The notes under the pieces: generated by a model
Told to the model about the DNA's origin: nothing
Seen by the model: the letters and a program-made list of their open reading frames with translations, nothing else
Databases searched by the model: none
In this document: piece by piece, positions 4,749 through 62,325 of the stretch
How the letters are laid out: each line of letters opens with the position of its first letter
Numbering within the stretch: position 1 is the stretch's first letter
Translations under genes and position numbers: made by a program
Origin: Lacipirellula parvula
GTDB taxonomy: Bacteria; Planctomycetota; Planctomycetia; Pirellulales; Lacipirellulaceae
NCBI RefSeq assembly: GCF_009177095.1
Contig: NZ_AP021861.1
Span: forward strand, 2,896,501-2,960,500
Length of the DNA: 64,000 nucleotides
Reading direction: 5' to 3'

Positions 4749-7700
4749 TCAGTCCGCGATCTGCACCTTGAACTCATCCGAATTCGCCCGCAGTTCTGGC
4801 GCGTACATGCCTGAACCCTTCGCCGGCAGGGCGCTGAAGCGGCCGGGAATCTCCGCTCGCAAGCGGTAGCTCACGCTATGCTGCCCGCGGGCGAGCGTGC
4901 GGCAGAACAGCACGACTCGTTCGTCGCGGAACTCGACGTAGGCGCCAAGTTCGTTGCCGTTGTAGCCGCTGCGGACTTCGAGCGCTTCGAAGCCAGCCGC
5001 CTTCATGTCTTCGAGCATCACGTACTCGTAATCGTTCTTGCTGTCGACCGTGAGCTCGACCTCAACGAGGTCGCCGCTCTTCAGTTCTTGTAGGCTGGTG
5101 ATTTCGCTGCGGTCGTACTTTTCGACCTGCTGCTCAACCACTTCGCCTCGACCGCCCGCGACGGCGGCCGTCTTTTCGGCGGGCGTGAGCTTGTAGAACT
5201 TGCGGTTCACCTTCAGCTCGAGGCCGGCGGCTTTGATGTCGTCTTCCAGCGTAAAGTTGGTGAGGTAGCCGTTGAAGTAGATCGGACCATCGCCTTTCTT
5301 GCGGAGTTCGACGGTATGCTCGCCGGCGGCGAGGGCCGCCCCTTCGAGCACGAGCGCGTTGTCGAACGTAAACAGCGTCTCGGCGGTGATCTCGACCGCC
5401 TTCTTCAGTTCGCCGTCGACGAGGACTTCCAGCGACAGGTTCGGCTTCGCTTCGCCAGTCGCCTTGAGGTAATCGGCAAACGCTTCGACCACGAGGGCCG
5501 TGTCGCGGGTGCTGTTCCAGTAGGTGCCATGCTTGCGGTTGTTGAGCAGGTACTTCACGAGCCGCGGGGCGACTTCGCTCTTCGGCTCGTTGGCGACGAG
5601 CAGCTTGAGGTAGTAAGCCATCGCCTCGTTCTCGCTGCCATACCAGTACCACCAGATGCCGCCGGGCAGGTCGAGCCACGCGGTTTGATTGTCGTCGTCT
5701 TGCTTGACGTACTGCGAGAGGTTTTGCATGACCATCTTCAGCATGTCGGCGACTGCGATAGCAGATTCCGACTTCTGATCGGCGACACCTGCTTTCTCGA
5801 TCTCAAGTGCCAAGCCGAATGTTGCCAGGCTGTAGACGGCGAGCTTCGTGCGGTCTTGATAGAGGTAGCCTCGCATGCGGTTGCGCGTGGTGGCGGTGTT
5901 GTCGGCGGGGTCGACTGATTCCTCTGTCGGTACGCCGGCCGGGGGCGGGGACGCCCCGGCTCGCTCGGCTTCGGTGAGGACTAGGTAAACAAGCGCGTCG
6001 AGGTTGTCGGCCTCCGACTTTGCTGGCGCGCCTTCGTTGCGGCGCTTCTTCGCTTCGCGGTCCCAGTTGTCGAGCTTCGCCAGCTCTTCGCGCTGGTAGC
6101 GCTGCAGCCATTCAACGCCGCGCTCGACGACGCCTGGCACGATGGCCACGTCGTTTTGCTTCGCGACGAGTAACCCGCGGACGACGGTCGCCGTCGTGTG
6201 AGCGGTCGAGTGCTCGCCCCAGCCGCTGAACCAACCCCAGCCGCCGTCGCTCAGTTGCATCTCAGTGAGACGGTTCACGCCTGCCTTCACGACGTTCGTC
6301 AGCTCGGCTTCGTCGAACACCGAGTTGCGGTCAAACCGCTTCCACTGCTCGGCCCGCGCCTTGTCGTCGCCGATTTCTTGCGCGTTGAGGTTCGTGCGCT
6401 TCTCCTGAATCGCCTTCAGGTCGACGCCCATTTGCTGCAGCGTCTTTTGCGTCAGCACCGCCGGCAGGAACCGGTTGAGCGTCTGCTCGGTGCAGCCGTA
6501 GGGGTAGTCGACGAGGTAGGGGAGGGCGTCGACCATCGCCCCGGCCAGCGTCGGCGAGTAACGAACCTCGAGCCGCGTTTGCTCGGCCCGCCGCTTCTCC
6601 GGCACGTTGATCGTGAACTTGCCGCTCTCCTCGCTCGGGCGGATAACGCCGCTGTAAGACTCGGTTTTCAGCATGCCGTGCACGAGCACGGGGAAGCTTT
6701 GCTGCATCGCGTCCGACTCGGCGTCGGTGAGGGCCGACATGCGAATCGTCGCTTCGCCTTCGCGGACGGCCTTCACGCGCCAATCGACTCTTTGTTCTCC
6801 CCCTGCCGGGATTTCGTACTGAATCTCGCTGAACTGCGGAATCTTATTACCCGCTTCGCTCTTGCTGTCATGCAGTTCCAGCGTATTGCCCTGAAGATCA
6901 AGTCGGACTCGGACCTGCTTCGCTTCCTTCAGGTAGTTGTGCACCACCGCCGACAGCACGACTTCATCGGTCTCGACGAAGAACCGCGGGGCCTGCAGGC
7001 GGACGATGATGTTCTTGCGCGTCACCGTCTCGGCCGAACCTTCGCCGACGCGCGTGCCGAGGCCCATGCTCCAAACGTTGATCTTCCAGGCGGTGAGATT
7101 CTCGGGCATCGTCAGTTCAACTTCGGCGAGACCCTCGGCGTTGGTTTCGAGGTTCGCCACCCACAGCGCGGTGTCGGCGAAGTTTTGGCGAACGGTCGGT
7201 TGAGCCATCTCGCCGCCGCCGTCGCTCGGAGCGTTCTGCGTCCGGGCGTCGGCCAACTCGGCTTTGAACATCGCTCCCTCGGGAGCGGGCGCTGCGGGCG
7301 CCATCGGGGCGCCGAGCGCCATCGCCATTGGCTGTCCTCCGCTACGCATCATGCGGCCATCGGCCAACGCCGCCCCAGCCATGGCGCCGCCGGAGGCGAA
7401 ACTCAGCGACTGCCCTACATCCACCGTGCTCCCGCCGAACACGCCCAAATCCTGCATCACCTTTTCATTCGGCTTCGTCACCGGATACTCAACGCGGCTG
7501 AGGCTCGTCTCGCTCTGCGGCGAGTGGCTCCGCCGCCACTTCCAGAAGAACTCGCGAATATCGGGCACGTTGCCGCCGCCCGAAATGTATTCGAGCGCTT
7601 TGTCGTACATCGCGATCACCGTCGACGCGACGACCGGCTTGCCGTCGGCGCCGGTGAGCTTCACCTGCACCTTCGCCTTCTGGCCCGGCAGGAACGCATC

Positions 7701-14949: not shown

Positions 14950-15033
14950 TCTCACGCAAAGGCGCGAAGGCGCAAAGATAAATTCAAAGACATTTGCGAT
15001 CGTTTCTTTGCGCCTTCGCGCCTTTGCGTGAGA
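14950..15033. repeat. Word-repeat hairpin element (CTTTGCGC words), 28-nt perfect arms
   Basis: Arms 14950-14977 and 15006-15033 are perfect inverted repeats around a 28-nt loop. Each arm is CTTTGCGC-CTTCGCGC-CTTTGCGTGAGA or its complement, i.e. an 8-nt word repeated three times with single-base variation. A T-rich tract follows on the + side. The same word set occurs inverted at 52150-52220. Confidence 0.92.
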
Positions 15034-18228: not shown

Positions 18229-18321
18229 GTCCGTCGTCAGTTGTCCGTGGTCAGTTGCTGAAAAACGAGGGCGCATGCTCCTGCGACAGCAGCAACTGAC
18301 CACGGACAACTGACGACGGAC
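18229..18321. repeat. Word-repeat hairpin element (GTCCGTnGTCAGTT words), copy 1
   Basis: Perfect 32-nt arms (18229-18260 and 18290-18321) around a 29-nt loop. Each arm has two copies of a 14-nt word, GTCCGTCGTCAGTT and GTCCGTGGTCAGTT, then GCTG. The loop starts AAAAACG and is conserved in copy 2. It abuts the stop side of the minus-strand gene 18326-18670. Confidence 0.92.
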
Positions 18322-18670: not shown

Positions 18671-18844
18671 CGCGAAATCTCCCTGCTACGGATTTCCCCC
18701 AGAAATCGAGCCGTCCCCTCTCTACGGAAGGGGGGCGCCACTTGGTTCGGCGGTGACAAGAAATTAAGATTCGACCGGAAAACGCCCTAAAAACCGCCAA
18801 TCTCGCGCATCCCAAACCACCCAACTAGGCTAAATTCGGCACAT

Positions 18845-18937
18845 GTCAGTGGTCCGTAGTCAGTTGTCAGTTGCTGAAAAACGCGGGTGCACGCCTCTGC
18901 GACAGCCGCAACGGACCACGGACCACTGACAACGGAC
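18845..18937. repeat. Word-repeat hairpin element (GTCCGTnGTCAGTT words), copy 2
   Basis: The left arm (18845-18876) and the imperfect right arm (18906-18937) flank a 29-nt loop that differs from the copy 1 loop at only about five positions. Total length matches copy 1 exactly (93 nt). It lies just upstream of the SYLF gene. Confidence 0.88.
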
Positions 18938-40602: not shown

Positions 40603-40778
40603 AACCGCCAAGGACGCCAAGGTACGCCAAGGAAATGCGGGAACAGATACAAGAACATGGAACCGCCGATAGACGCCGATGAACGCAGATAGTTCTTCAT
40701 CAGCGTTTATCTGCGTTCATCAGCGGTTCCAGAATTGATTTTGTATTTACTTGGCGAACCTTGGCGTCCTTGGCGGTT
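40603..40778. repeat. Nested word-repeat hairpins (CGCCAAGG outer, CGCCGAT inner)
   Basis: Outer arms 40603-40632 and 40750-40778: three copies of a 10-nt word (CCGCCAAGGA, CGCCAAGGTA, CGCCAAGGAA-like), mirrored. Inner arms 40659-40690 and 40699-40730: words CCGCCGATAG, ACGCCGATGA, ACGCAGAT, mirrored. One element has been inserted in or formed inside the other. It fills the 234-nt gap between two polysaccharide genes. Confidence 0.9.
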
Positions 40779-48909: not shown

Positions 48910-49010
48910 GAACCACAACGGCACAACGAGCACGAAGGAAATACAGTAAGCACGATCGGCTAAGCCCATTCGTCTTCGTTCCTTCGTCGTGTCCTTCGTG
49001 TCGTCGTGGT
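48910..49010. repeat. Word-repeat hairpin between sucC and sucD
   Basis: Arms 48910-48940 and 48979-49010: imperfect copies of CACAACGG, CACAACGAG and CACGAAGG-type words with a mirrored arm (CCTTCGTGTCGTCGTGGT at the right). The word class recurs at 58773-58879. Confidence 0.85.
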
Positions 49011-52149: not shown

Positions 52150-52220
52150 CTTTGCGCCTTCGCGCCTTTGCGTGAGACATTCTTCGTTTAATTTTCACGC
52201 AAAGGCGCGAAGGCGCAAAG
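52150..52220. repeat. Word-repeat hairpin element (CTTTGCGC words), 26-nt perfect arms
   Basis: Arms 52150-52175 and 52195-52220 are perfect inverted repeats around a 19-nt AT-rich loop, using the same three words as 14950-15033 in opposite order. It lies between convergent stops (52127 and 52248). Confidence 0.92.
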
Positions 52221-58725: not shown

Positions 58726-58926
58726 AACCGCCAAGGATGCCAAGGTGCGCCAAGGAAATGCAAAGGAACTAATTACCACGACGACACAACGATCACGACG
58801 AAAAACTAATAAGAAAAAGTTTTGAGCGGATTTCCTCTCACGAAGTCTTTCCTTCGTGTCCGTTGTGTCGTCGTGGTAAATATCTTTCCTGTATTTCCTT
58901 GGCGAACCTTGGCGTCCTTGGCGGTT
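58726..58926. repeat. Nested word-repeat hairpins (CGCCAAGG outer, CACGACGACA inner)
   Basis: Outer arms 58726-58758 and 58894-58926 use the same 10-nt word class as 40603-40778 (CGCCAAGG). Inner arms 58773-58791 and 58851-58879 use CACGACGACACAACG words, as in the sucC-sucD gap. It lies between convergent stops (58712 and 58939). Confidence 0.9.
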
Positions 58927-61281: not shown

Positions 61282-61868
61282 GGGCGATCCTTCGAGGCGG
61301 CTTTCGATTGCAGTAGCTAGCAATAGGTATGGTACGCCTGTCCAGTTCGGTGCGCCAATGCTCGCGGTACTGTCGCGGGCTGAATGCGGGGAGGTTTAAC
61401 CACGAAACACACGAAACAGACGAAAAGAAGGAGGGAGATTTGCTGTTCGAATAGCTCGAAGAATGGGAAGCGGATTTACGCGAATGAGCGCGGAGTTTCG
61501 CGGATTGTTGCAGGCTGGAATCTCATTGATTGAGAGCCGGTGCTGTCGTCACGGGCGCGCTCGAACGCGGGTTCCTTCTTCTCTCTTCTTCTTTCGTTCC
61601 TTTCGTGTGTTTCGTGGTTAATCTCTTCGCCCCCTCGCGCGAGTTGGCCTGCTAGCATCGTCGCGACGCCGGTGAGGCAAGTTTGAAAAAATGATGCGGT
61701 TTGGGAGAGATTTACGCGCGCAAGACGAGAGTCGTTTGATATATTGCCACGCAAGTCAGGGCTGTCGCATCGGAGGCGACTTCGCGATCCCGGTGCAGGA
61801 TGACGGCCGCCGCTATCGTGCCGGCGCATGGGGCACTGGGTTTCTTACGTTAGGGGAGGGATTCCCGC
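61282..61868. other. 587-nt divergent region with a word-repeat hairpin (CACGAAACA words)
   Basis: Arms 61396-61430 and 61589-61622: words CCACGAAACA, CACGAAACAG, ACGAAAAG, mirrored in the second arm. Inside it is a single arm of another word class (GCGGATTTACGCG ... GAGTTTCGCGGATT near 61471-61506), an apparent remnant. Presumably also holds the promoters of pcrA and the alpha-CTD gene. Confidence 0.75.
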
Positions 61869-62180: not shown

Positions 62181-62325
62181 TGCGGGGAGGTTGGCCACGA
62201 AACACACGAAAAGACACGAAACAAAGAATTGAGTTAGTGGGGGAGAACGTTCTTTAGCTTCTCTCTGTTCCCAGTTTTTTCTTTCGTGTCATTTCGTGTG
62301 TTTCGTGGTTAAAAATCTCCCCGCA
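62181..62325. repeat. Word-repeat hairpin (CACGAAACA words) with T-run, after the alpha-CTD gene
   Basis: Arms 62181-62226 and 62280-62325; the outermost TGCGGGGAG pairs with CTCCCCGCA. Words CCACGAAACA, CACGAAAAGA, CACGAAAC are mirrored. TTTTTT follows at 62326, so this element can also serve as a terminator. Confidence 0.9.

Follow-up and report, generated by a model that had tools for sequence, protein, structure and literature searches.

The closest known systems are the REPIN-RAYT ones, where a low-copy, vertically kept gene is situated within hairpin-forming repeats and many non-autonomous copies of these repeats are dispersed over intergenic regions (PMC3116915, PMC8049555). The system described here works like REPIN-RAYT, yet fails its defining features. 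As in REPIN-RAYT, the gene (of the GxxExxY family) is low-copy and vertically inherited, and is accompanied by dispersed, probably non-autonomous copies. However, its predicted enzyme is a PD-(D/E)XK nuclease, whereas RAYT is a Y1 HUH transposase, and each arm consists of approximately three tandem words of 8-10 bp, specific to the class, whereas REPs are short self-palindromes. The short hairpins also resemble MITEs of insertion sequences, being short elements with the terminal inverted repeats of a coding element, whose ends they match, but here the coding element has no known transposase and the arms are formed by iterated words. As for homing endonucleases, the likeness is confined to one locus, where an element between gltB and gltD is less diverged than its flanks, as homing-like conversion would give; unlike homing endonucleases, GxxExxY elements are intergenic and hairpin-flanked, and contain no intron or intein. 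Finally, the GxxExxY protein shares the fold and the E..D..ExK..QxxxY motif with Cas4 and RecB-like nucleases and lambda exonuclease, but is encoded by a minimal stand-alone gene (125-130 aa) between the arms.

Small dispersed repeats of cyanobacteria were reportedly described by Elhai et al. Repeats of the type described here recur in many environmental genomes, and to our knowledge have had no evident owner so far. GxxExxY genes sit within repeats of this kind. In the open-access literature searched, we found neither the arm words themselves nor anything linking GxxExxY, TIGR04256 or PDDEXK_3 PF13366 to flanking inverted repeats or dispersed hairpins.

The window, that is, the whole analysed stretch of 64,000 nucleotides (G000:C1:2896501-2960500), belongs to a genome of 6.92 Mb assembled as a single contig (G000, hereinafter "this genome"). 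Six word classes were scored: A, CCGCCAAGG; B, CCACGACGG; C, CCGCCGATG; D, TCACGCAAAGG; E, CCGCGAATC; and F, CCACGAAAC. The window contains the following hairpins of these classes.

40603-40778, unstranded: outer class-A hairpin element (CGCCAAGG words), arms at 40603-40636 and 40745-40778; an orthologous shell is present in G004:C4.
40661-40728, unstranded: inner class-C hairpin (CGCCGATG words) in the class-A loop; its place is taken by class E at the orthologous G004 locus.
58726-58926, unstranded: outer class-A hairpin element; G003 and G004 have other word classes in the same intergenic slot.
58776-58876, unstranded: inner hairpin, of class B (CACGACGG words); in this genome, arms of that class are found on both sides of the GxxExxY gene L072.
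48913-49009, unstranded: class-B hairpin, not inside any class-A shell.
61400-61617, unstranded: class-F hairpin (CACGAAAC words), missing at that site in G003 and G004; class-F arms flank L074 in this genome.
62195-62308, unstranded: class-F hairpin; other classes occupy the same slot in G003 and G004.
14950-15033, unstranded: hairpin of class D (ACGCAAAGG words), its arms head-out like those of the class-D nuclease gene L073.
52150-52220, unstranded: class-D arms, tail-out (the reverse arrangement).

A further class of iterated-word hairpins (CAACTGACCACGGACAACTGAC) is seen at 18229-18321 and 18844-18931, and hairpins related to it are polymorphic between G003 and G004. Short class-D hairpins (window 52150-52220; L033, L041, L060, L065, L067) are mainly tail-out (16 tail-out vs 6 head-out), opposite to the head-out arms around the class-D nuclease gene, and the tail-out ones have GAAATAC tails resembling the tails inside class-A arms.

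The original prediction, made from the letters of the window, was that two hairpins of different word classes are nested at 40603-40778, and that at 58726-58926 the same outer class encloses a different inner one. Both nests are confirmed. In the first, the outer arms (AACCGCCAAGGACGCCAAGGTACGCCAAGGAAAT and its complement) are 34 nt long and 94% complementary, and the arms of the enclosed class-C hairpin read AACCGCCGATAGACGCCGATGAACGCAGAT..ATCTGCGTTCATCAGCGGTT; in the second, class-B arms reading CCACGACGACACAACG..CGTTGTGTCGTCGTGG are situated inside the class-A shell. The single-strand folding energies are -64.7 kcal/mol (z -14.4) and -74.7 kcal/mol (z -15.9), respectively, and for each nest none of the 200 dinucleotide shuffles was as stable.

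The class-A word is overrepresented in the window, with 16 occurrences of CGCCAAGG observed and 4.2 expected. At the level of the complete genome, the two-word arm CCGCCAAGGNNGCCAAGG (one mismatch allowed) has 131 copies, 69 on the plus strand and 62 on the minus strand, and no copies when read backwards. Among the 60 genomes searched, the class-A arm is found in many copies in the same-genus relatives G003 and G004 and in no copies in three other genomes of the genus; exact class-A arms number 102 in G004, 39 in G003 and 34 in G000. The census of all classes covers 864 kb of this genome, comprising the window and 40 stretches of 20 kb, nearly all of them picked around class-A elements; hence, all counts other than those of the class-A pattern rest on this class-A-biased sample and not on the whole genome. 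The sample contains 285 arm matches, compared to 10 in the reversed-sequence control.

Nesting in this sample is strongly asymmetric. Arms of other classes are present inside 30 of the 35 class-A hairpins, compared to 4 of the 44 head-out hairpins of classes B-F, and no class-A hairpin was found in the sample inside any other class. The loops of class-A hairpins amount to 5.5 kb of the 864 kb, yet contain 22 of the 54 other hairpins, a density approximately 100-fold higher than in the rest of the sample, which is to be taken as a guide only, given the shorter loops of the other classes and the bias of the sample in favour of class A. The inner word classes also occur in the sample on their own, outside class A. 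Thus, the suggestion that one class is a preferred target or host for others holds as far as class A is the usual host; "preferred target", however, may mean "oldest class", as this role of class A may reflect age rather than targeting.

In G000, G003 and G004 taken together, 90 of the 100 class-A hairpins hold arms belonging to one or more of seven other classes, which occur in many combinations; in the remaining 10 no contents were detected, and the interiors of four of these are 24-60 nt long. Eleven class-A shells were matched between species by their flanking genes. The inner content of seven shells differs between species, and in the other four it is the same, two of these containing no recognised class; in two orthologous shells the same class-B content is observed in all three species. 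At the 40603-40778 locus, the flanks and the left arm are the same in G004, and the inner hairpin belongs to class E, not class C, while G002 and G005 have no element at this locus. At approximately 58.7 kb and 62.2 kb, the sister species have hairpins of different classes in the same intergenic slot.

If the inner and outer arms formed one composite structured element maintained for its function (e.g. a binding array or an RNA), they would be expected to occur always together and with the same spacing. The fact that 90% of class-A hairpins have contents, as well as the two shells with the same class-B content in three species, would agree with that. However, the contents vary freely in class (at least seven inner classes), number and orientation, and the inner content differs between most of the orthologous shells, therefore this is not one fixed composite; moreover, Rfam yields no matches at gathering thresholds within the window. 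A fixed composite element is thus rejected, and a composite kept for function seems very improbable.

Nested insertion, as originally proposed, is supported by the inner classes existing alone and by one shell that differs between species by a class-F hairpin: the shell in G004 (L294) contains it, whereas in G003 (L399), once the inversion of the interior is taken into account, the corresponding position has just CCCCG. The alignment across genomes thus bore out the expected variation in shell contents; the short target duplications that were expected along with it are not established, as the direct repeats at two hairpin insertions are imperfect, 9 bp long and situated some 20-35 bp outside the arms, and other loci have none.

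The same data could also arise if contents were exchanged and not inserted, that is, if homologous recombination or gene conversion between class-A arms swapped the interiors and one old nesting was copied widely. Such exchange would explain why orthologous shells differ beyond the inner hairpin, in their right-hand arms and tails, and why some class-A loops contain a single arm of a class only; one locus, where G003 and G004 have the interior in opposite orientations, bears a sign of recombination between arms. On the other hand, seven classes in many combinations would require many original nestings anyway, the inner classes are found outside class A too, and the alleles of one shell differ by little beyond the class-F hairpin. 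We regard exchange as a possible, though rather unlikely, source of the nests.

For the insertion of hairpins, a candidate agent is encoded between the arms themselves. All four GxxExxY genes of this genome are situated between inverted arms: those of class B (L072), class D (L073), class F (L074) and a GGATTxxCAGGAT class (L071). In other genomes, GxxExxY genes are flanked by class-A arms (G004, G010, G016, G028), class-C arms (L092 in G016) and class-E arms (G004, and G005 in a variant form). Each of the classes A, B, C, D, E and F flanks some GxxExxY gene in this genome or its relatives, and about 30 of the 34 GxxExxY loci in this genome and eight relatives have clear arms.

The same arrangement is observed far outside this group. 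In a dozen or more phyla, the arms at 60 of the 73 testable GxxExxY loci exceed all 60 dinucleotide shuffles, the sample having been drawn by conserved peptide patterns, which may favour one part of the family; for control flanks 1.2-1.5 kb away, the same holds in 2 of 61 cases. The 73 loci come from named genomes including Cyanobacteria, Acidobacteriota, Bacteroidota, Sphingomonads and a Methanosarcinales archaeon. Mispaired flanks were dropped as a null, being biased because the arms of different loci resemble one another, and dinucleotide shuffles and distant flanks were used instead. The family as a whole is present in 139 of the 294 sampled genomes of the phylum Planctomycetota, in archaea, and in a dozen or more bacterial phyla.

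The similarity of arms increases with the identity of nucleases (Mantel rho 0.44, reached in 0 of 999 permutations), also within the taxonomic family of this genome (rho 0.27, 1 of 999 permutations). Four class-A nucleases, each from a different genus, share 60-71% identity with one another and no more than 46% with the nucleases of other classes. In Sphingomonads, GCGRAG arms are dispersed at 12-47 copies per genome in 9 of the 13 genomes (G060-G072), compared to 0-3 copies for controls. They are absent from the other four, at least three of which have nuclease loci with arms of mostly GCAGAG; two Sphingomonad genomes with GCAGAG-type nuclease arms nevertheless contain GCGRAG copies.

As the arms are the ends of gene-carrying elements, and the arm words and the nuclease co-vary, the dispersed hairpins are probably non-autonomous copies, similarly to the REPINs in RAYT systems, though the enzyme here is unrelated to RAYT. 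This analysis suggests that the GxxExxY gene family spreads the hairpins, and we find it fairly likely that they are short non-autonomous copies of a mobile-element family whose autonomous form is a GxxExxY gene between inverted arms.

As judged from profiles and a structural model, the gene in the arms encodes a GxxExxY protein, which is a RecB/Cas4-like PD-(D/E)XK nuclease by predicted activity. The profile scores are well above the curated cut-offs of TIGR04256 / PF13366 (146 and 129 bits vs 35; 144 vs 22). In 26 aligned proteins the positions G29..E32..Y35, E42, D71, E81, K83, Q95 and Y99 are invariant, the shared motifs being GxGxxExxY, D71, ExK and QxxxY, with the PD-(D/E)XK catalytic motif intact. 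The predicted structure (pLDDT 96.9) has Cas4 SSO0001 as its best fold match (Z 10.0), lambda exonuclease also being among the best, and weak matches to Cas4 profiles agree with this; many other PD-(D/E)XK nucleases match the model at Z 5-8, which alone has little weight. A search of PDB by sequence found no relative, and PHROG yielded no match.

The nuclease genes persist at particular loci. In G000, G003 and G010, the class-D gene is situated between genes read as gltB and gltD from their translated ends rather than from a search. Other nuclease loci in operons are likewise conserved across genera; the neighbours of class-B and class-A nuclease genes are kept across species or genera, and one nuclease locus is common to several Sphingomonad species. 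In every pair with estimable dS, dN is well below dS, which is otherwise saturated; by this codon-level measure, the nuclease genes at conserved loci are shown to be under purifying selection. At the gltB-gltD locus, 3 of 56 four-fold sites differ between G000 and G003, compared to 119 of 487 in the flanks (p = 0.0006, for a single locus with few sites). The similarity of the two genomes rises at the arms, and the element is less diverged than either flank, which is consistent with later conversion or re-insertion of the class-D element at the same site.

Among the three species, G004 has an intact class-A gene and G003 a copy with a 2-bp frameshift, while G000 lacks the gene; one CCGCCAAGG word is left there at the site, being either a remnant or a target-like word. 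Since some class-A shells are common to all three species, loss of the gene in G000 is the simpler reading. Class-A and class-C hairpins are plentiful in this genome although it has no nuclease cognate to them, hence the copies outlive the nuclease or do not need it. The outermost position of class A is probably due to a greater age, given that the class-A nuclease is frameshifted in one species and gone from another, while the inner classes are still turning over. At L294 (about 5180-5240, G004) and L399 (G003), the upstream gene apparently takes its in-frame C-terminal codons from the nuclease element, namely from the left class-A arm.

The GxxExxY gene could instead be mere cargo, or a host gene beside favoured sites of hairpin insertion, with another factor spreading the hairpins. 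In these genomes the unrelated small gene families PF05635 and DUF559 likewise lie within repetitive inverted arms, and joint inheritance would also produce a correlation between the arm word and the nuclease; however, the arm class tracks the nuclease clade across genera and phyla, the catalytic residues are kept, and selection on the gene is purifying. We consider a passive role of the gene unlikely.

Nor does the transposase known from REPINs account for the arms. Ordinary REPINs, moved by a HUH (Y1) RAYT transposase, look like dispersed imperfect hairpins, and this genome does have Y1 transposase genes and REP-like palindromes. However, within 400 bp of the 12 Y1 loci of G000, G003 and G004 there is no class A-F word; most of these loci adjoin different, GC-rich palindromes, and the iterated-word arms are found at GxxExxY genes instead. 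A RAYT origin of classes A-F is hence rejected, and that the hairpins are ordinary REPINs is extremely improbable. Two hairpin systems, Y1/RAYT palindromes and class A-F arms, coexist in these genomes.

Returning to the GxxExxY nuclease, we infer that it mobilises the hairpins. Each nuclease would recognise its own arm words, and its cuts or nicks would fall on extruded hairpins or on target sites resembling the words; the element would then be copied in during repair. Short hairpins that retain the arms would be served in trans. Later elements would enter the loops of hairpins already present, particularly those of the old class A, yielding nests.

The link to hairpins gives the conserved GxxExxY nuclease family a likely role. 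The arm word set against the protein sequence may be a readable recognition code, testable at the bench, and the nests would allow the element classes in a genome to be ordered relative to each other in time. More broadly, and tentatively, at slightly less than even chances, we propose a widespread, undescribed prokaryotic mobile element: a minimal RecB/Cas4-like nuclease, whose own recognition code takes the form of iterated words in the arms, would spread itself and non-autonomous hairpins, the classes parasitising each other's loops, while the four-helix IVP and DUF559 proteins would run parallel systems of the same architecture.

PF05635 genes, which encode the four-helix 23S rRNA intervening-sequence protein, have inverted iterated-word arms, e.g. 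AATGACGAATGACGAAATCCGAATGACGAATG, in G000, G003, G004, G016 and G028 (L371-L391), most of the 21 loci scoring above shuffles, and in three genomes DUF559 (PF04480) genes have inverted arms of the type TCCCCCTCCCTCGCAGGGAGGGGCTAGGGGAGGG (L393-L395). There is also a REP-like TGTGGGAGGCGTCTCCGACGCC hairpin inserted in G003 (G003:C1 near 2795614, compared to G004:C4) with an apparent duplication of 5-6 bp (CTGTGC), and a palindrome similar to TGTGGGAGGCGTCTCCGACGCC adjoins the Y1 gene L326.
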